35,848 nucleotides of DNA, taken from contig WFXC01000039.1 of NCBI GenBank assembly GCA_015490805.1, forward strand, positions 1 to 35,848, given 5' to 3'. The notes below the pieces were generated by a model. The model was not told the DNA's origin. It searched no databases and worked only from the letters and a program-made list of their open reading frames with translations. Source of the DNA: Candidatus Kapaibacterium sp. (GTDB taxonomy: Bacteria > Bacteroidota > Ignavibacteria > Kapaibacteriales > WFXC01). Positions 1-23,441 of this stretch are shown here, one piece after another; the first letter of the stretch is position 1; each line of letters begins with the position of its first letter. The position numbers were made by a program, and so were the translations under genes.

Positions 1-401
1 TCGACAAACAACACGACCGTCTTTCCCGGTTGTTTCAACGCCGAATCAAGATGCCCTTTTACTGCTCTCTGCAAATTCTGTGTCCCTTTGATTATCTGCT
101 TAATCTCCAGAATCTCCTTAATCCTGCCACCTTCTTCCCGCCATCCATCTGCGTGCTTATATTCCGCATACGCCCCCGGCTCCCGCAGGACAATGTGCCA
201 GCCGGTTATGCGCGCGATCTCCTTTGCTGCCTCCAGCTCTGGCATTAACTTCTTCTCCCACAACCGCCGCCGCATCTTCTCTGCCTGCTCCTGCACGTCC
301 CGCCGGATCACCTTCTCAAGAAGCGCCTGCTTCATCGCTTCGATTCCCGCCGGCGTCATCTCCGCTTCCCGTGCCAACTGCTCCGCTCGCCGTTTGGGCA
401 T
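1..401 (-). CDS. PD-(D/E)XK / CdiA-C-like nuclease domain protein, 3' end outside window
   Basis: The reading frame opens at the ATG at 399-401 and stays open for 133 codons to the window edge, so the C-terminus is missing. The first 60 residues are charged and helical (Arg, Glu, Lys, Ala rich). Residues 60-133 look like a small alpha/beta nuclease fold: a helix ending ITGW, then ADG with Asp85, a strand ILEIK holding Glu99 and Lys101, a helix ending ALKQ (Gln124), and a final strand VVLFV. The order Asp, Glu-x-Lys, then a Gln-containing helix and a hydrophobic strand is the pattern of CdiA C-terminal tRNase domains and related PD-(D/E)XK nucleases. There is no signal peptide and no obvious immunity gene in view. 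Codons are strongly G-ended and the coding strand is purine-rich, like the gene at the right edge. The ribosome site is weak. The frame is likely real; the function is an inference from motif order. Confidence 0.6.
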   Translation of the reverse strand, partial: MPKRRAEQLAREAEMTPAGIEAMKQALLEKVIRRDVQEQAEKMRRRLWEKKLMPELEAAKEIARITGWHIVLREPGAYAEYKHADGWREEGGRIKEILEIKQIIKGTQNLQRAVKGHLDSALKQPGKTVVLFV

Positions 402-419
402 TCTGCCACTACATTCTAC

Positions 420-616
420 TGGGAGCGCACCCTTTAGGGTGCAACGTTGCCGACTAAAGTCGGCGCTCCCAGCCGGCACAACCCGACCGGTCGCCCACCG
501 GGAGCGCACACTTCAGTGTGCATCCACTGGGAGCGCACGCTTCAGCGTGCATCTTTCCATCTTTTGCCGACTGAAGTCGGCGCTCCCAGTGTCGGCGCTC
601 CCAGCCGGCGCTCCCA
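420..616. repeat. REP/BIME-like cluster of covarying palindromes
   Basis: Five perfect 16-bp palindromes lie at 427-442, 449-464, 506-521, 535-550 and 566-581. Each is joined to a GGGAGC box (421-426, 500-505, 529-534) or its complement GCTCCC (465-470, 582-587). Two further truncated copies (GCTCCC at 597-602 and 610-615) end the cluster. Read in one orientation, every unit is a GGGAGC box, then a stem, then CTTCAG or CTTTAG, then the matching stem. The stem bases differ between copies but stay paired: GCACC, GCCGA, GCACA, GCACG and GCCGA. Copies occur in both orientations, and 421-470 forms a larger inverted pair. A separate 7-bp inverted repeat lies at 621-627/644-650. The cluster sits just beyond the stop codon of the giant minus-strand gene, the usual place for REP elements. 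No RAYT transposase is in the window. A translated frame across it (454-663) is an artefact. Confidence 0.85.
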
Positions 617-672: not shown

Positions 673-3600
673 CTACCGAACTATGAGAAACTGGCGGTAG
701 TATACCTGCTCCCCTATCCGGAATCGCAGCATATAGAGACCGGCTGCTTCTTCTCTCACCGGGACGTTTACGTGTTGCTCGCCGGATAGCACCGCCGGAC
801 CAAGAATGGTTCGCAGCTTTCGCCCATTGGCAGTGTACAATTTCACGGTCGTTTCCGTTGCGGCGGGAACTGTGAAGCTCACTGTTACCTGTTCAGACGC
901 CGGTTGCGGCGCCAGGTGAACCTGAAACTTCGAGGCAATGGACGACCGTTGCCGCACGCCGGTAACCACCACCGAATCTTCCGGAAGATCCGTTACCGAC
1001 AGCAGCTCATCCAGGCGAAACGTTCGCAGGACCAGGTTCATATTCCGATTGCCCCATCGAATTCCGTACTGGATTGTATCGCCAACTGCGGTGGCGTTGT
1101 TTTCGTGCGCAAATAAATTGATGGTCTGTGGCGTTTGAAAATCGAAATCAAAACTGTAAATCTGCATTGCCGTATCGCAGACGTATGGCGAAGCCATTAT
1201 ATGCCTTTGTTGCTGCCGTTTCGGATCAATCGCGACTAAATCGATCTGACTCCGGTGTTCGCCAAAGATCTTCGAGGTCCACGCACGGCGGTATCCAGCC
1301 AGTATTACGCCATTGTCGTTTACTGCCACGCGGGGCAGGGTACAATAGGAGAGGGAATCGCGCCATTCAAAAAGCGGCATCCGATCCCACCGACCAGCAG
1401 TGGTATCCCATTGGAGAAGGCGAATGACTGTCTCTTTCGTCACTGTATCAACCGAAATCTGGAGCAATGCCCCTGCTCCTGTATGGTTAAATCCCTGGGC
1501 AATATCGACAATATGCTCCGTGCTCTCTCCGCTATGGAGTAGCGTTTCGGGCGTCTTCCAGCTACCATAATAAACGCGGCTGCGCACCCGACTGACCACG
1601 CGCCCCTGTTGTCGATCCCGCTCAATCCAGCTTAGCACGGCAGCATTGTTCCCAATGCGATTGAGCACCATTTCGTGATCCTGGAACTGTGTTGCCAGTA
1701 ACACCGGTGGCATCTGCACTTCCCACACACCGTCCGAATTTCGATCAATCGTCACCGCCAGGAGATCGGAGGATTGACCGTATCGCACATGCCAGACCAT
1801 GAGAATCTCTTCATCATTGAGCACCGTAGCTGCGGGTTTTCCCTCGATCCTGCCTGAACGGAGACTGTCAAGATTATCCGGGACCATTCCAACCGCTTCA
1901 ACCTGCCGTGTCCTGACATTGTAGATCGCATACCAGATATCCTCGGATTCCAGAAAGGTGATTGGTCCGAGTTCACGAGGCACGGTTTCCGGTGTATACC
2001 GCGACTGCATCCAGGTCACTACAGCATACGGTCCACCACTATAGCTGAGTTGCGGATATGTCGGCGCATTCCGGTTGGTTACAATGGTTACAGGCGCTGC
2101 AAAATGCTTTTGTCCCAGATGTCGCTGGCTCAGCACAATGCTGCGAGTGTCATCGAAGGACTCTTCGATCCAGGTAATCAGGAACACCGAATCCGCCGAT
2201 GCAACCGACGGCTGTGGGAATAACATCGGCGTGATACGGTTGACCTGACTGGATAGCTCATCTGTCCCGAAAAGTGTGCCAGCCTGCCGCTTCGGTGCCA
2301 GTGTCCACGATGGCGATCCCCTTTTTTGCGAACTCAATCGAGACTTCAGCAAACCAAAAATTCCGTGTCCCTGGTTGGGGAATAATTCCGGGAACGCATA
2401 GCCTTCGGTCAGGTGCAGAAACATTTTGGGACCGTATAGGGTTTTGCTGAACAGGAAGAGGTAATGAGCCACCACCTTCCCATACAACTGGAGCGTAATG
2501 GAGGGTAACAGTGGCGATTTCCACCGATCGGGCACCGTCTTCCATTGATGTCCTAGGCCGCCAAGCATTCGCCCGGTGATATCCAGCGAAAGTCCTGCCA
2601 ATCCCCCGGCAACCGAAACGCCGACTGAGAGTGTCAATCCTCCCCCCATCTGGAACACTTCATAACCTGCCCACTGCGTAACATCCACGGTATCGGGGTC
2701 CGGTTCCGGTTCCGGATAGGGCAAAGGCTCGCGCACAAAGCCAAGTCGGCTCTTTGTAAATGCCCGGACTCCTTTCGCTCCATAGCGGTGTTTTTCTGCA
2801 TCATACCCCAGATTATGGTGGACATACTGCGCAAAGGCAAAATTAAAGCCGATAGTTACGTACGGCTCGATGGTTGCATCACCATCTTTTTCCAGTTTCT
2901 CCAATACCCCAATAGCCTGCAAAAATCCCTGCATTGCTCGAATTGTTGGCAAATCCTGCTGGAAAGCGAAGGAAAATAGCTGCTGTGCCAGCAGATTCTG
3001 ATTGCTATCCAGCAGATAAAATGCTTTTCCGTCGCGCTCTTTCCAGGAAAAATGCCGGGTAATCGGAATACCAAAAATGTTCAAGGTCATCGTTGTGCGA
3101 GGCGTGGAGATCAACGCCAGTGCTTTTCTGGACTTTGCATACCGGCATCGGACTTCAAAACTATTGGATGGAAAACCCAGTGGTTTGCCCTTAAAAATCG
3201 GGACGCCTGAACCCAGTAGATAAGTCGCTGATGGATTTACAAGCGCTGTTAAAACTGCTGGATTTACCGTCCAGATTTGCGGTTCCACCGGAGCATTATA
3301 GGGCACTTTTACGGTAAAGTCTACCGTTGTCGTGGTTTCACTCACATTATCGAAGCGTGCGGCACTGAACCAATCCGGTCGAGTTCGGCGGATAGTGATG
3401 GGTTTCGTAGTACTGCGCAACAAATCACCAGAGCGCGAGTTGTAGGTTTTCAAAACCAGATTGGTCGTCGGCGGCTCCAGGCTTCCCATCGGGGTGGTAA
3501 GGAGCCAGAGGGAATCATTGCCCGCCACCTTTCGGGCAGTGTCCCGGCGGATCAGAATGCCACGCTGATCGTAATATTCGGCGATCATTCGCACTTCATC

Positions 3601-6600
3601 TGCAAATTCAATGATCCGGAACGTCTGGAGTTGTTCCATTGAACCTGGAGCAATTGCCTGGTCGAAAGGTCCGAAATCTCCTTCAATCTTTGGCGGCACC
3701 AGTGGTAGCACCTTGAGGAAAAAGGGTGTGACCCGCCGCACTTCCGGATTATCAACTTCTTCAACCGACAGTTCCAGATATGACCCCGGTTCTGCCTCGC
3801 CCACATCCAGTGCAACTCCGTACGGCGATTGCCACGTGAAGGTCCGGGTATAGGAATGCGACGCCAACTGCTCACCGTTCGACTTGCGAAGCACAACCCG
3901 GCGCACCGACCAGGGATGGAGCATTCCTCGAAAAGCAAAGCGGACAGGATCCTGACTGGCTTCAAAAAACGGACCGAACCCATCATCGGCATAAGCCGCA
4001 ATAGGAGTCCAATTTCGAATCGTATCTCTGTTCTGCCCTCCTTCTCGCGCAAAGGCAAGTGCCCGAACAGACAGCGGATAGCGATACACAACGCCCGTAT
4101 CCGGTCCAGCACCGCGGTAAAAAACCCGAACGCTCAACTGATACGTCTGCGGCAATCCACTTGAAATCTGCGGCAACAGCATTCCAAAATTGCGCTGATA
4201 GGTTGCCCAATGCACCGTGCCGGTGTGCTGTCGGCGATGCATTCCACCATACACCGCATTCTGCTGGTGGGTTTTCCGATCATACAATGCGGCACTGCTG
4301 GTGTCCGCGCAGGAGAGTGAATGCTGCAAAGCGGAAAATTCCAGCGGCGGCGTGCGATACATCAATGCGGTACTCTCTCTGCCGCTCAATGCAGCGGAAT
4401 ACACTCCGATTTCTGTGATCGAGCCCTCCATTGCCCGGTTCTGCGAGGGAGCGTCGGGCCACCCCTGAATCCGCCCTCGTCCGATGCGCCAATAGCCATT
4501 GTAAGTCGAACCATCAATCCACACTTCCTGCTCATCGATGCTGACCCCATCAACGAAAATCCGCATGATCCCTTTGTGCGTTCCTGTTGGCTCGAAAGAA
4601 GCTGCTACGTGATGCCACTGCCCGTCGTTATATCGGTGTTGAGTGGAAAGCACCTGCGCGCCGTGGCTGTGGGACCAGATACCAAAATGCAAGCGTCCAT
4701 CAGTGCTCATATACAGATGCCGATCATAGTCACGGCTGTTGAGCCCCGGAGCAGCCGTGCTTTCAAAGCCCAGGATTTTGCCACCTTCCCGGCTGGTTGT
4801 CTTGATCCAGCACAGAACAGTAAATGGACCGGTTGGCGCCGCATACGGGGCACCACTTCCTCCCCGTTGCAGTGACACCGCCGTATTCGGTGTTATTTGA
4901 ACCGAATACGCAGATGGGATAGCCGGACCCCGGATCGTATCTGCCCAGCGAGGACGATGCAATCGAGCCGCAGGACTATGCACAATAAAGCTTTGCCGAC
5001 CAAATAAACGCCCATTGTGCAGAATTTCCGGACATTTCCCCGTCAGTTCCTCGCACGGATGGAAATTCAGGGGGAAATAAAACCGCAAAGCCTCATCCTC
5101 CTGCCACTGCCGCTGTACGATCGGATCCATCAGATTGACCGATGGCAACTGCTGAATCCGCTCCGCGGATAGGGCTTTCTGGAAAATGGTCACTTCCGCC
5201 ACATTCCCCGGTATGTCCCCTGGCGACACCTGGATCGAGTTTGGGGGAGATTCCAGTGGCAATGCAGAGGAATACGTTGCCGTTGGCGCATTCTCACCAC
5301 TCGTTGCTCCATCCACACTGGCATAGAGTTTCAATTTCCCGTCAACAAATTTCGCCACAAATACCACGTGGCGCCACGGATTCTTTTCAATATCCGACCG
5401 AATCTCAAATTCTGTACTGATTGGCACCTTTATAATAGCCGTTCGTATCGAGCCATCGCCACTGTGCCGGTACTCCCTCTTAAAAACGGCATTAGCCACA
5501 CTATAGAAAAAATTCTCTCCCCGCTTTTTCCGCTCTTTCTCAACGCTCACCGTCCAGTTGACGCCCAGAACATCCGGAACAGCGGAAATAATCTCGCTTT
5601 CTTCTTCGACCAGGGCATTCAGGCGAATCCAGAAAGAAATCGTCAATTCCGTTACTTCCCCTCCTGTCCAGCGATCCGAAGCACCATTAAACAGAAAGCC
5701 CCCCGTCCGGTAGAGCCCATAGGAACGCTGTGCTGGTCCTTCTACATTGATGACGAGGCTATCCACTTCCATCGGGAATTGCACCAGATGGATGGGAATC
5801 TGCCACATCTGTCCGGACACCAGCGAATCCAGCGGAATGGGAGAACGGAGCACGGGCGATCCCGGATAAATCCGCAACGTTTTTTCTACCGTTAGCGGTT
5901 CTACCAGCGCCGGGGAAGGAATAACCGCTCGCACTTTTATGCAGGTCGGCGGCAGGCTTGCAAGATCAAATTCGATAGTAGCCTGGCGAACCACGGTAAA
6001 AAAGCCCGGGTTGTGCGGAACGGTAATCGCCCGGAAATGTCCCGAAACGCTTTTAATCCTGTGCCCTGCGCTGTCCAGAAATTCCAGCCGAACAGCACTG
6101 GAAGTGTTATCCAGCCAATCAGTTCTGATGATGAACTTTCTGACGACCGTATGATGATCAGCAGTATCAAATGGATTGCGAGCGTAGACTGGCGTTGTCG
6201 TCTTCCACGGTCGGTTCTGTTCATCCACCACCTGCATTTGCGGTTCGGGCGGTACAACAATCAACGACCGTCGCTGCACAATGCCGGTATCAGCAGAACC
6301 AGAAGCAAACACCCGCACCTGGATCCATCGAACCGAAACCGGCAATTGCGCCATATCAAAAGCGCTGGATTCGACAGAGTGATCCGCAAATACCTGTTCA
6401 ACATTGGCAACAGAATGCTCACTCTGTTCGAGGATATTCCCTGTGCTATCAACAATCTCAAACCGAACCCTGGTGGTATACCGTGGCAGATGATGGACAG
6501 TAAACCGCACCGGTGTTGGGGGAATCGGACGCGTATTGTGACGAAATCTCCGATAATTATTGGTCTGAAACGGACCAAAATGATCAGAGGAACGGATGGT

Positions 6601-8325
6601 AAAACGGGTGGGCAACACATCCATTCCTACCTGATAGGTCGTTCCTTCAGGATATCCATCGGTGTGATACACCGTAACCTTCAGCAACGGCGAAAGTGGA
6701 AGCTGGAGTTCTCCGAGGCGCACCGTGTAGGAAACGGAATCCAGAAAGCCAGAACCGGCAGCAATTGCAACTGAATCTCTGTGGCGAACACCGTTGGAAT
6801 CCAGATACTCCACGGTTTTGCCATTACTGTGGGCAAAGCGCAATACCACGCGTGTCGTGTGGGGTGGAAGATCCGTTATCGTAAAAATCACCATTGTATC
6901 CAGATCGGCGAAAAACGGCAAGAAGTTGAACGAAGACCGGATCACAGGATGCGGCACCGCAATGCTGATGGGCTGGAAAATCTGGTATCCCTGCGCTGGA
7001 AAATTTGAATCTCCCGTGACGCGCACGTGTACATAGGCGCCAACGGGCAAGCGCCCCATATCGACATTTGACCACTGCTGCGCCGATGATACCTGCTGCT
7101 GCAACACGGCGCTGTCACTTCGGAGCTGAAAAACAAGCGTGTCTGCACCTACAGGAAGTGAATCCAACTGGTAGGTTGTGTAATGTTTGTACCCCTGCAT
7201 AAAAGGACCAAAGCCACTGGAGGATTGGAGCTGTATGCTCGCAATCGGCTTTACCGACCGGGCAAATCGGACATACATCGTATCCGCAAAAAAGGGCAAC
7301 TGTGGGATGGAGAAGGTCCGGTGGGAGCGATCTACCGTACCAATGATAACAACAGGATTGGCAAACTGCGGTGTCCGGTCTACCAGAAAACACGCCTGCG
7401 CGTTCACCCACTGAGGCAGCAGCTCAAGCTGGAGCGACAATGGACGCTTCAACCCTTTGCTCACAATACCCCAATACCCCTTTGTCTGCCGTTCGATCCC
7501 GGCAATCTCACTGGCTTCCAACAGCGACACGTTGCCAGTATAACCAATCACCGCAATTTGTTCTGCATCCGTAAAAGCTGCGGAAATCTGGAGATTCCCA
7601 CTGCGGGCGTGCGGTCGTTCCTTCCACGCTACGGCTGTTTCGGTCAAAAAGGAAACGACCGGCACAGCGCGATGCTCCACAGCCGCACCGTTGCGTAGCA
7701 ACAATTTCCGATTTCCCGCCGCGGCTTCGACCGTATCACCAGAAACGGAGCGAAAATCAAAGGTAGCAAGCGTTCCGCTGACACTGGAAAGATGAAGGCT
7801 GCTACGGATTTCTTCTTCCGATCGTACTCGATTCCAGAATCGCAACTGTGTTATCGCGCCCCGGAAAAAGACAGTATCGTGTGAAGCAGGATCAAAATAC
7901 CGTCCAATGTCTGAAATCCGAAAACTGCCAAACTGCCCCGTCCGATTGCCACGGAAAACACCATTCAGGTAGAGCAGTGCGTGATCAGCCCTGACGACAA
8001 TTGCCACGTGGTTCCATCCTTCGTGAAACGGATACGACGGCGAATGCAGTCCTCCCTGCGTCAATCTTATTTCCCGACCATTGACAATGGTAACCGCCAT
8101 TTGCGTTGTATCCGCCTGATTATCTGCTAAAATGGCGCGAACCACGTGATCATCAGCGGTAAAACTCTGGATCCAGAACTCGATCGTGTACGGTGGTTGC
8201 AAACGGATCGGGGCATCCAGCGTGGCGTATTGTTGTGGTGAATCCAGATGCAACACTGGCACCTGTCCCCATCCATTCAGCACGCTAACGAAGTAAAGAA
8301 TTACACTGAGCCATCGAAACCGCAT
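673..8325 (-). CDS. Giant secreted LamG / beta-sandwich repeat protein with T9SS sorting domain (2550 aa)
   Basis: I start it at the ATG at 8323-8325, because AAGGGGAG lies 7 bases upstream; a TTG 33 bases earlier has no such site. Residues 1-21 are a signal peptide ending NGWGQ. Three LamG/concanavalin-type modules are visible at about 35-195, 890-1065 and 1150-1325, with WNHV, WRHV and WHHV motifs. Around them are about seven beta-sandwich units; several open with FGPF (near 372, 583, 1450 and 1570) and most contain an LPxxT-like turn. A unique middle region (about 1690-1990) includes an acidic proline stretch and a glycine-rich patch. Residues about 2000-2440 repeat a SWIE/TWIE/VWHV pattern, suggesting a beta-propeller. 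The last 80 residues form a T9SS type A-like sorting domain (PQPA, LYTANG, GLYMLRF). This is probably a surface-attached or released adhesin or structural protein. The ligand is unknown, and no catalytic motif was recognised. Confidence 0.9.
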   Translation of the reverse strand: MRFRWLSVILYFVSVLNGWGQVPVLHLDSPQQYATLDAPIRLQPPYTIEFWIQSFTADDHVVRAILADNQADTTQMAVTIVNGREIRLTQGGLHSPSYPFHEGWNHVAIVVRADHALLYLNGVFRGNRTGQFGSFRISDIGRYFDPASHDTVFFRGAITQLRFWNRVRSEEEIRSSLHLSSVSGTLATFDFRSVSGDTVEAAAGNRKLLLRNGAAVEHRAVPVVSFLTETAVAWKERPHARSGNLQISAAFTDAEQIAVIGYTGNVSLLEASEIAGIERQTKGYWGIVSKGLKRPLSLQLELLPQWVNAQACFLVDRTPQFANPVVIIGTVDRSHRTFSIPQLPFFADTMYVRFARSVKPIASIQLQSSSGFGPFMQGYKHYTTYQLDSLPVGADTLVFQLRSDSAVLQQQVSSAQQWSNVDMGRLPVGAYVHVRVTGDSNFPAQGYQIFQPISIAVPHPVIRSSFNFLPFFADLDTMVIFTITDLPPHTTRVVLRFAHSNGKTVEYLDSNGVRHRDSVAIAAGSGFLDSVSYTVRLGELQLPLSPLLKVTVYHTDGYPEGTTYQVGMDVLPTRFTIRSSDHFGPFQTNNYRRFRHNTRPIPPTPVRFTVHHLPRYTTRVRFEIVDSTGNILEQSEHSVANVEQVFADHSVESSAFDMAQLPVSVRWIQVRVFASGSADTGIVQRRSLIVVPPEPQMQVVDEQNRPWKTTTPVYARNPFDTADHHTVVRKFIIRTDWLDNTSSAVRLEFLDSAGHRIKSVSGHFRAITVPHNPGFFTVVRQATIEFDLASLPPTCIKVRAVIPSPALVEPLTVEKTLRIYPGSPVLRSPIPLDSLVSGQMWQIPIHLVQFPMEVDSLVINVEGPAQRSYGLYRTGGFLFNGASDRWTGGEVTELTISFWIRLNALVEEESEIISAVPDVLGVNWTVSVEKERKKRGENFFYSVANAVFKREYRHSGDGSIRTAIIKVPISTEFEIRSDIEKNPWRHVVFVAKFVDGKLKLYASVDGATSGENAPTATYSSALPLESPPNSIQVSPGDIPGNVAEVTIFQKALSAERIQQLPSVNLMDPIVQRQWQEDEALRFYFPLNFHPCEELTGKCPEILHNGRLFGRQSFIVHSPAARLHRPRWADTIRGPAIPSAYSVQITPNTAVSLQRGGSGAPYAAPTGPFTVLCWIKTTSREGGKILGFESTAAPGLNSRDYDRHLYMSTDGRLHFGIWSHSHGAQVLSTQHRYNDGQWHHVAASFEPTGTHKGIMRIFVDGVSIDEQEVWIDGSTYNGYWRIGRGRIQGWPDAPSQNRAMEGSITEIGVYSAALSGRESTALMYRTPPLEFSALQHSLSCADTSSAALYDRKTHQQNAVYGGMHRRQHTGTVHWATYQRNFGMLLPQISSGLPQTYQLSVRVFYRGAGPDTGVVYRYPLSVRALAFAREGGQNRDTIRNWTPIAAYADDGFGPFFEASQDPVRFAFRGMLHPWSVRRVVLRKSNGEQLASHSYTRTFTWQSPYGVALDVGEAEPGSYLELSVEEVDNPEVRRVTPFFLKVLPLVPPKIEGDFGPFDQAIAPGSMEQLQTFRIIEFADEVRMIAEYYDQRGILIRRDTARKVAGNDSLWLLTTPMGSLEPPTTNLVLKTYNSRSGDLLRSTTKPITIRRTRPDWFSAARFDNVSETTTTVDFTVKVPYNAPVEPQIWTVNPAVLTALVNPSATYLLGSGVPIFKGKPLGFPSNSFEVRCRYAKSRKALALISTPRTTMTLNIFGIPITRHFSWKERDGKAFYLLDSNQNLLAQQLFSFAFQQDLPTIRAMQGFLQAIGVLEKLEKDGDATIEPYVTIGFNFAFAQYVHHNLGYDAEKHRYGAKGVRAFTKSRLGFVREPLPYPEPEPDPDTVDVTQWAGYEVFQMGGGLTLSVGVSVAGGLAGLSLDITGRMLGGLGHQWKTVPDRWKSPLLPSITLQLYGKVVAHYLFLFSKTLYGPKMFLHLTEGYAFPELFPNQGHGIFGLLKSRLSSQKRGSPSWTLAPKRQAGTLFGTDELSSQVNRITPMLFPQPSVASADSVFLITWIEESFDDTRSIVLSQRHLGQKHFAAPVTIVTNRNAPTYPQLSYSGGPYAVVTWMQSRYTPETVPRELGPITFLESEDIWYAIYNVRTRQVEAVGMVPDNLDSLRSGRIEGKPAATVLNDEEILMVWHVRYGQSSDLLAVTIDRNSDGVWEVQMPPVLLATQFQDHEMVLNRIGNNAAVLSWIERDRQQGRVVSRVRSRVYYGSWKTPETLLHSGESTEHIVDIAQGFNHTGAGALLQISVDTVTKETVIRLLQWDTTAGRWDRMPLFEWRDSLSYCTLPRVAVNDNGVILAGYRRAWTSKIFGEHRSQIDLVAIDPKRQQQRHIMASPYVCDTAMQIYSFDFDFQTPQTINLFAHENNATAVGDTIQYGIRWGNRNMNLVLRTFRLDELLSVTDLPEDSVVVTGVRQRSSIASKFQVHLAPQPASEQVTVSFTVPAATETTVKLYTANGRKLRTILGPAVLSGEQHVNVPVREEAAGLYMLRFRIGEQVYYRQFLIVR

Positions 8326-8622
8326 TGGCATACTCCCCTTGGATGAACAAATCGTCAAGAGCAGTCAAATGCTTTGAGAGTAAAGGAAGGAAGGCAGTAG
8401 ATCAAAGCAAATTTCACTCCTCTTTGCCTCCAGCAACGTTTCAGCGCGCAGATTATTACCAAGGAACTCCATTTTTGCGGTTTGAGCACCGTAAATTCTG
8501 ACACCGGGGCGGCTGCACAAGCTCAACAATTCCGGCAAACCATCGCTGCGTCTCCTCCCCCTCGAATGATCCGGAAAGCATACCTCCGCACTGAGCGATG
8601 CGCCTGAATGGGAAGTATTTCA
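8326..8622. other. Intergenic region upstream of the giant secreted protein gene
   Basis: This 297-base spacer separates the kinase stop from the giant gene's start, both on the minus strand. The best promoter-like match on the minus strand is TTGATC (8405 down to 8400), 17 bases, then TACTCT (8382 down to 8377), about 50 bases before the start codon. The -10 box is poor, so this is tentative. A 55-codon frame overlapping the kinase stop (8456-8623) has no recognisable features. I see no clear terminator, repeat or RNA gene. Confidence 0.3.
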
Positions 8623-21231: not shown

Positions 21232-22365
21232 ATGCTATGCACTGCTATGAAACAGCGATGGCTTTTCACACTGCTAACGGTAAATCTGGCACTCAGCAGT
21301 ATACTGCCGGGGTGGAGCTCGCGGATTAAAGATATTGCCCGGATTGAGCGACCTCGTAGCATCCAGATTATTGGCTATGGATTAGTGACTGGACTGAATA
21401 ATTCTGGAGACTCCCGCCGCTCAACTTTCACGCTTCAATCAGTTGTGAGTATGCTGAAACGCTTCGGCGTGACCGTTCCCCAAGTTAACCAGTTGAATCT
21501 ACGGCTACGCAACGTTGCTGCGGTGATGGTCACCGCGACGATCGATCCCTTTATGTCACCTGGCACTCGCTTTGATGTCCGGGTTTCTTCCCTTGGAGAT
21601 GCTCGATCGCTGCAAGGCGGCGTTCTGCTGCTCACACCACTGGTAGCGGAAGATGGAACGGTTTACGCTACTGCCCAAGGTCCACTCACTGTCGGAGGAT
21701 TTCAGATTGAAGCAGCAGGTTCAATGGTGGCAAAAAATATGGTCAATACCGCAATTGTTGTCAATGGTGGCATTCTGGAAAAAGCGCTGCCTGCCGATTT
21801 TGTAACAAACAACAAAGTACGCATCATTCTCAACGAACCGGACTTTACCACGGCTGCCCGAATTGCCGAGGTCATCAATGCAACGCCCAATTTCGCTGAT
21901 GCTGCTAATGCGATCGACGCGCGTACAGTCGAAGTGCACTTGCCCGACAATCTTTCGACCAATCAGATCATTGCCCGTATCGCCCAACTGGAATCGCTTC
22001 AGGTAACGCCCGATCCACCAGCTCGCGTCGTGATCAACGAACGCACTGGCACGGTTGTCGTCGGTGGCAACGTTCAATTACTGCCCGCTGTTATCGCACA
22101 CGGTGGACTGGAAATCCGGGTGCAGTTGGAACGAATTGCCGTTCCGCCTCCACCATTTACCATTGCAGAAACCAAAGTTTTAGAGCGGGCAACCCTCCAG
22201 GCACTGGAAGAGTATCGAGCAGCCACGCCAATTGAAGGAGCTGCCACTGTCCAGGAAATCGCCGATGCACTGAACAAGCTAAAAGTTACGCCGCGAGATC
22301 TTATCGCCATTTTTCAGGCACTCAAAAAAGCGGGCGTACTGCAAGCTGAACTCATCGTCGAATAA
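21232..22365 (+). CDS. flgI: Flagellar P-ring protein FlgI
   Basis: 377 residues, full length for FlgI, which forms the P ring in the periplasm. Family segments in order are RIKDIARIERPRSIQIIGYG, LVTGLNNSGDSRR, MLKRFGV, NVAAVMVTATIDPFMSPGTR, DVRVSSLGDARSLQGGVLLL, NERTGTVVVGGNVQLLP and a C-terminal LNKLKVTPRDLIAIFQALKK. A signal peptide precedes them. The ATG at 21232 follows flgH by 3 bases; the ATG at 21247 five codons later would give a cleaner basic start of the signal peptide. The stop overlaps the flgJ start by one base. Confidence 0.95.
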   Translation: MLCTAMKQRWLFTLLTVNLALSSILPGWSSRIKDIARIERPRSIQIIGYGLVTGLNNSGDSRRSTFTLQSVVSMLKRFGVTVPQVNQLNLRLRNVAAVMVTATIDPFMSPGTRFDVRVSSLGDARSLQGGVLLLTPLVAEDGTVYATAQGPLTVGGFQIEAAGSMVAKNMVNTAIVVNGGILEKALPADFVTNNKVRIILNEPDFTTAARIAEVINATPNFADAANAIDARTVEVHLPDNLSTNQIIARIAQLESLQVTPDPPARVVINERTGTVVVGGNVQLLPAVIAHGGLEIRVQLERIAVPPPPFTIAETKVLERATLQALEEYRAATPIEGAATVQEIADALNKLKVTPRDLIAIFQALKKAGVLQAELIVE

Positions 22366-23441
22366 TGGAAGCGGCTTTGCTCCATACCGCTGCCCTCTCC
22401 TCTATACCCGCAGCCTCACAACTTGAAACGCATCAATTGCAGCAATTGATCACGAAAAAATCTTCCCTTTCTCCAGAGGAAAAAGCAGCGTACTGGAAAA
22501 CGGCGCAGGGCTTTGAATCGATTTTTCTCTATATGCTTCTCAAAGAAATGCGCAAGACCGTCCCCACCTCCACTCCGCTGCTGGGTGGCGGCATTCTCAA
22601 CACGTTTGCTGACCTGCAACTTGCACAACAATTGGGTAAGGCGGGGCAATTTGGTATCGCTCCACTGGCGTATGAATATTTCGCCGGAGAACCTTACGAT
22701 CCTGCTACCATTACTCAGGCACTACAGCAGATCCAGCAGGCATCAGTAAAGCAATCTGCTCCCCGCTTGCAATCTGCTGCATCCTCATCGATGAAATTGT
22801 CGAATGCTACGGACACGCCAGAATCCGGAAAGCCTGACAGCGTCCCTCCTGCTGAGCCTGAGCCCATAGCTGGTAGACCGCCGCGACAATCTGTCGATGA
22901 CCGATCTTCTTCAGTTTCTCCGAACTCCTCTAGGCCATCTTCCCCTCTCGACGCTGCACTGTTTGCGAAGCTCCACGCTCCCGATGGCATCTCTCCCATT
23001 GCGCAAGAAGTGCTCCGCTATCACCAGCAGGTTGCGCCGTACCTTTCCATTATCCAGCGTGCGGCGCAGCGCTGGCGTTTCGATCCTGCGCTCCTCAAAG
23101 CCATCATCATTGCGGAATCCGGCGGCAATCCGCGTGCAATCTCACCGGCTGGCGCCAAAGGCCTTATGCAACTGATGGATGAAACGGCACAATTCCTTGG
23201 TGTCCAGGATCCTTTTGACCCAGAAGAAAACATTTTCGGCGGCACCCAATACCTTGCGCAGCTTCGGGATCGGTATGACAATCTGAAACTTGCGCTGGCT
23301 GCTTACAATGCTGGTCCAACGGCTGTCGACCGATATAGAGGAATCCCACCGTATCCGGAAACCCAACGCTATCTCCAGCGGGTCTCCCATATTGCTTCGC
23401 TTCTCGGATTTCCGCTTTCCGTCTCCTCCGTCGCCCTCTAA
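22365..23441 (+). CDS. flgJ: FlgJ-like rod-binding protein fused to a lytic transglycosylase
   Basis: 358 residues in two domains. Residues about 35-110 form the rod-binding domain of FlgJ (AAYWKTAQGFESIFLYMLLK, GGGILNTFADLQLAQQLG). A low-complexity Pro/Ser/Ala linker spans about 125-205. Residues about 210-350 are a soluble lytic transglycosylase (SLT) domain with AESGGNP holding catalytic Glu251, AGAKGLMQLM, FDPEENIFGGTQYL and ALAAYNAGPTAV. In E. coli FlgJ the second domain is instead a glucosaminidase; the role, opening peptidoglycan for the rod, would be the same. No signal peptide is present, as expected for export through the flagellar apparatus. It is the last gene of the operon; its ATG overlaps the flgI stop as TAATG. 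Confidence 0.92.
   Translation: MEAALLHTAALSSIPAASQLETHQLQQLITKKSSLSPEEKAAYWKTAQGFESIFLYMLLKEMRKTVPTSTPLLGGGILNTFADLQLAQQLGKAGQFGIAPLAYEYFAGEPYDPATITQALQQIQQASVKQSAPRLQSAASSSMKLSNATDTPESGKPDSVPPAEPEPIAGRPPRQSVDDRSSSVSPNSSRPSSPLDAALFAKLHAPDGISPIAQEVLRYHQQVAPYLSIIQRAAQRWRFDPALLKAIIIAESGGNPRAISPAGAKGLMQLMDETAQFLGVQDPFDPEENIFGGTQYLAQLRDRYDNLKLALAAYNAGPTAVDRYRGIPPYPETQRYLQRVSHIASLLGFPLSVSSVAL

Follow-up and report, generated by a model that had tools for sequence, protein, structure and literature searches.

A GGGAGC-tagged family of paired hairpin repeats in Candidatus Kapaibacterium, probably of RAYT type

The palindrome cluster near one end of the window (the whole 35,848-nt stretch of DNA analysed here, a contig from a Kapabacteria-order MAG) is very probably an array of a RAYT-type REP/BIME family that has GGGAGC as its tag, in place of GTAG or CGTC, and whose cognate RAYT has apparently been lost, or left unassembled, in the genus.

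An array of tagged hairpins

Five GGGAGC-tagged hairpins span positions 421–587, in the intergenic interval between two minus-strand genes (Table 1). In all five palindromes the 5′ foot is GGGAGC and the core is CTTTAG or CTTCAG, and each was found, with its arms, where the initial annotation had placed it; the five exact matches compare with 0.7 expected at three or fewer mismatches. Every 16-mer is paired at 7 of 8 positions, the arms being perfect and the central pair mismatched. The array has 5 palindromes in a 206-nt span, against a mean of 0.09 and a maximum of 2 in random spans of the same contig. The first two units face each other over a 6-nt gap to give a tags-outside heterodimer (421–470), which is predicted under RNA folding parameters to pair its two tags as a base stem beneath the two hairpins.

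The Laminin_G_3 protein encoded on one side of the array has a weak C-terminal sorting-domain match. On the other side, the first 390 nt of the window, which lie inside the flanking gene, recur on contig C12 (L051:192–581) with 93% identity, adjoining a related cluster, so this contig end may be a duplicated locus. Far from the array, positions 21232–23441 encode the flagellar P-ring protein FlgI and, after it, a transglycosylase whose rod-binding match is weak.

Table 1 Repeat units and genes in the window, with RAYT-like genes and GTAG-tagged heterodimers of the genus
Feature	Location	Strand	Palindrome (arm)	Description
Flanking gene	3..401	-		Start ~401, runs off contig; no Pfam match
A-type REP unit	421..442	+	427-442 (GCACC)	Tag GGGAGC and hairpin GCACC-CTTTAG-GGTGC; exact match; predicted hairpin with unpaired tag
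B-type REP unit	449..470	-	449-464 (GCCGA)	Tag GGGAGC and hairpin GCCGA-CTTTAG-TCGGC
A-type REP unit	500..521	+	506-521 (GCACA)	Core CTTCAG; opens 29-nt tandem step 500-528
A-type REP unit	529..550	+	535-550 (GCACG)	Core CTTCAG
B-type REP unit	566..587	-	566-581 (GCCGA)	Core CTTCAG; faces A unit 529..550 across 15 nt
Truncated B unit	592..602	-		Single arm TCGGC and tag GCTCCC (at 597), read from the sequence; additional to the initial annotation
Truncated B unit	605..615	-		Single arm CCGGC and tag GCTCCC (at 610), read from the sequence; additional to the initial annotation
Flanking gene	673..8358	-		2561-aa Laminin_G_3 protein; ends 57 nt from array
RAYT-like gene, G000:C44	L315:3310-4056			GTAG-type repeat inside reading frame
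RAYT-like gene, G001:C109	L317:3732-4412			GTAG-type repeat inside reading frame
RAYT-like frames, apparently decayed, G000:C38 and G001:C23	L316:1075-1971, L318:2012-2908			MSNHIH in L316; irregular N-terminus
GTAG heterodimer, G000	L063:12492-12544			
GTAG heterodimer, G000	L064:9495-9547			
GTAG heterodimer, G000	L050:9391-9442			

Copy number and distribution

The pattern is not confined to the array. Its exact form occurs 274 times (137 + 137) in the 2.67-Mb genome of the window (G000), where a reversed control gives 0, as expected of the REP-like family that the initial annotation had proposed. Two congeners, both 'Candidatus Kapaibacterium' MAGs, hold 113 and 212 copies; two further database entries (G312 and G313) were equated with these genomes (G002 and G001, respectively) from identical counts and coordinates. 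The window's genome is the sole match in a 296-genome sample of the phylum, the exact pattern being absent from the other 295. Outside the phylum, full-stem copies with this tag and core are present among the matches listed, which include chance matches, for MAGs of Verrucomicrobia, Planctomycetota and Acidobacteria, with at least 97 copies in a Planctomycetota genome (G305), at least 57 in G307 and at least 49 in the Acidobacteria genome S145_17 (G310). Where read, the copies in S145_17 (L133, L241–L250) form homodimers with 34-nt spacers; no clear cognate RAYT was found in that genome. Many of its contigs start less than about 130 nt from a repeat copy. Of the copies in the sampled stretches of the window's genome, 38/122 fall inside ORF calls, which are crude and possibly spurious; the window cluster itself is intergenic.

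Two unit classes on opposite strands

Dimer and flank statistics were taken from stretches chosen around copies (~0.52 Mb of G000 and ~0.62 Mb of G001). The unit consensus is AC(T/C)GGGAGC-GCnnn-CTTYAG-nnnGC-A, with A in 65%, C in 92% and T in 72% of copies at the three positions before GGGAGC. This 5′ flank matches neither the GT[AG]G tag of the GTAG REP superfamily nor the CGTC tag of the CGTC superfamily. As in REPs and REPINs generally, the family consists of short palindromes with a conserved foot at high copy number, arranged in inverted pairs and clusters.

The stems fall into two classes, A (GCACn) and B (GCCGr). Adjacent A and B units lie on opposite strands without exception (51/51 in G000 and 27/27 in G001), neighbours of one class mostly share a strand, and tags-outside is the commonest arrangement at spacings of 15 nt or less (18/30 and 15/22, respectively). 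The suggestion that copy units spread as pairs with a common core was not borne out, as the T/C core of one unit does not predict that of its partner in close A/B dimers (4 T/T, 3 C/C, 3 T/C and 6 C/T in G000, Fisher p = 1.0; both genomes pooled, p = 0.26). The pairing rule that holds is that an A-type unit faces a B-type unit, not that the two share a core.

RAYT genes beside the repeat in other genomes

In the Planctomycetota genome G305, the repeat of the window, with the same tag and core (GGGAGCGCAGG-CTTYAG), flanks a gene for a 216-aa RAYT (L255) on either side; its product scores 83.4 bits against the NCBIfam model REP_Tyr_transpos, passing the cut-off of 80. Relatives of this RAYT in several genomes have GGGAGC hairpins with other stems and loops within ~200 nt, and three such loci (L272, L276 and L282) have them on both sides; at many other relatives no GGGAGC hairpin was found within 700 nt. 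The paired GGGAGCGC motif was not found at the first 30 Y1 loci taken from genomes that bear the motif, the REPtron being among further loci.

The window's own order supplies a further case. G045, a complete one-contig genome, encodes a RAYT (52% identical, 97.5 bits) that adjoins two arrays of tandem A units and an inverted B unit (A-A-B) with CTGGGAGC tags, a layout like that in the window. Convincing copies in this genome are confined to a 15-kb stretch around the RAYT, of 395 kb sampled. In the tree, the RAYTs flanked by GGGAGC are not monophyletic (two changes), and a single origin of the GGGAGC tag is therefore not supported.

Stem covariation

Among copies picked by tag and core alone, 86 of 122 pair at all five arm positions, against a mean of 20.5 and a maximum of 33 in shuffles, and full pairing also exceeds within-class shuffles (A, 36 against a mean of 13.7; B, 50 against 25.5). 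The copies thus preserve pairing, and the earlier proposal that constraint acts on the hairpin and not on the sequence is supported. The accompanying claim of compensating changes stands in so far as pairing exceeds that of shuffles, but most copies belong to a few compensated stem types (ACC, ACA, ACG, CGA and CGG), so that only a handful of compensatory events is needed: the covariation is that of a few compensated subfamilies that were afterwards copied. Compensated stem subfamilies, together with compensatory changes in dimer spacers, have already been described in known REPs (PMC3733652; PMC3116915). Stem types and core variants go together here, ACC with CTTTAG and ACG with CTTCAG, for instance.

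Template-switch correction of quasi-palindromes during replication is a mechanism established in general, and it might keep the pairing neutrally, without selection on a recognised hairpin. One-step intermediates, which such correction can draw on for support, are present at the innermost pair (A-C 6 and G-T 3 in G000; G-T 10 and A-C 8 in G001). We consider this explanation unlikely, since it accounts for neither the A/B rule nor the copy number, and explains neither why tag and core stay constant nor why the repeats surround RAYT genes.

RAYT-like genes and turnover in the genus

A profile of 16 RAYTs found no cognate-group member in the three genomes of the genus (G000, G001 and G002), which are MAGs of 97–99% completeness. 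The Pfam model Y1_Tnp (PF01797), present in 208/296 phylum genomes, has no match in the genus, which is a false negative for RAYTs in general, the 16-sequence profile having picked up divergent RAYT-like genes (Table 1). Those in L315 and L317 fall below both the Pfam and the NCBIfam curated cut-offs. The link to a RAYT raised by the initial annotation is supported through other genomes, where the repeat flanks such a gene; no cognate enzyme was detected in the genus.

Could the divergent RAYT of the genus (G000:C44, G001:C109), whose repeats are GTAG-type, have mobilised the GGGAGC copies? The G000 gene retains an HIH motif and a tyrosine motif. In addition, a second repeat family in G000, comprising GTAG-tagged heterodimers in which a GTAGGGGCGAAGC hairpin faces a GTAGGGGCGACCC hairpin, is interleaved with GGGAGC units in the same clusters; these heterodimers are absent from the window itself. 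However, the repeats inside the gene are GTAG-type, the nearest GGGAGC-type unit in L315 is ~3.4 kb away, the GGGAGC-flanked RAYTs are separated in the tree from the genus RAYT-like genes, which sit on a very long branch, and in published work each RAYT is tied to a REP family of its own (PMC6006769), which together make mobilisation by this enzyme improbable.

The repeat thus looks orphaned in the window's genome. This may reflect true loss or poor MAG assembly of a repeat-flanked gene, and the present data fit both. As the cognate RAYT appears to be lost or unassembled, the GGGAGC copies in the genus are likely to be relics or to have been mobilised in trans.

Comparison of congeners points to turnover of the arrays. 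Loci of G000 and G001 that are ~90% identical differ by whole mosaic blocks, in which a CCCTCTCCC-type repeat accompanies GGGAGC and GTAG units. G001 also has a 29-nt A step that the related locus on C12 of G000 lacks. None of the compared loci showed a clean empty site for a single unit. Judged from these alignments, the block differences appear to be turnover and not clean unit insertion. A third repeat type, CCCTCACCC...CTCTCCC...GGGAGAGGG, is inserted in inter-unit spacers (L049 ~9890 and L065 ~11922).

Transcript-level and insertion-sequence alternatives

The hairpins are predicted to be stable and, by crude gene calls, clusters occupy 11/49 convergent against 6/52 divergent gaps in G000, as might be seen if they were terminators or mRNA 3′-end stabilisers kept by selection on transcripts. 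The same crude calls give an inconsistent strand in tandem gaps (A units, 6 same and 10 opposite, and B units, 17 same and 6 opposite, in G000, and a nearly even split in G001), the window hairpins are not followed by a T-run, and such a role does not predict the opposite-strand A/B rule; we regard selection at the RNA level as very improbable. A terminator role in particular was set aside as weak on the strand and gap statistics of these crude gene calls. That the units are MITE-like ends of an unrelated DDE insertion sequence is scarcely credible: the outer ends of the dimers are inverted repeats (CTGGGAGC), but no larger element with such ends was noticed on unsystematic reading of stretches, and in other genomes it is a Y1 transposase that lies between copies.

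Discussion

We favour a RAYT-type REP/BIME origin for the array. Each unit would fold in single-stranded DNA as a hairpin (6-bp stem, 4-nt loop) whose 5′ tag, of consensus ACYGGGAGC, stays unpaired, and A and B units joined tags-outside would form heterodimers that can fold with their tags paired as a base stem. A RAYT (a Y1/HUH single-strand transposase) of the group flanked by GGGAGC hairpins would have cut at the tagged hairpins and copied units or dimers. Local 29-nt tandem steps and deletions may afterwards have reshaped the arrays, and the cognate RAYT would have been lost, or escaped assembly, in the genus. Counted against this reading are the missing cognate RAYT in the genus, a tag other than GT[AG]G, the non-monophyly of the flanked RAYTs, the many relatives of the G305 RAYT with no GGGAGC hairpin in the 700 nt around them, the confinement of convincing G045 copies to the RAYT stretch of the 395 kb sampled, and the lack of a clean empty site.

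A broader proposal is that GGGAGC is the guide of a separate RAYT–REP lineage spread over Planctomycetota, Verrucomicrobiota, Acidobacteria and the Kapabacteria order, acting through A/B heterodimers, with repeats that outlasted their transposase in one genus; we consider the case for and against it evenly balanced. A literature text search for GGGAGCGC found no such bacterial repeats among the titles and abstracts listed. Published REP classifications are mainly built on GTAG and CGTC tags, and GGGAGC would be a third tag with its own RAYTs, which would make guide recognition testable by comparison of enzymes. A genus with many repeats and no cognate RAYT detected is also a natural test of REP persistence without a transposase.

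In E. coli BIMEs, two unit classes alternate in orientation within mosaic clusters, as they do in the GGGAGC arrays. The Y and Z2 REP units of these BIMEs (PMC6006769) have a different tag, stem and loop, the repeat described here having a 6-bp stem without a bulge. TnpAREP genes with internal REPs (subclass 2.4, PMC6006769) resemble in pattern the genus RAYT-like genes, which hold GTAG-type repeats between the HUH and Y motifs; this likeness concerns the second repeat family of the genus and not the GGGAGC repeat. GTAG-superfamily REPs with their RAYTs (REPtrons and REPINs; Di Nocera 2013, PMC3733652; Bertels and Rainey 2011, PMC3116915) share with the GGGAGC family a short hairpin with a constant unpaired foot, subfamilies with complementary stem residues, tags-outside dimers, heterodimers, clusters and repeat-flanked RAYT genes, whereas the tag here is GGGAGC (ACYGGGAGC) and not GTAG or GTGG, and the genus yielded no cognate RAYT. 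CGTC REPs (PMC3733652) are similarly palindromic, often heterodimeric and found in hosts without a dedicated transposase, but they have a different tag, and the GGGAGC repeat, unlike them, flanks a transposase in other genomes.
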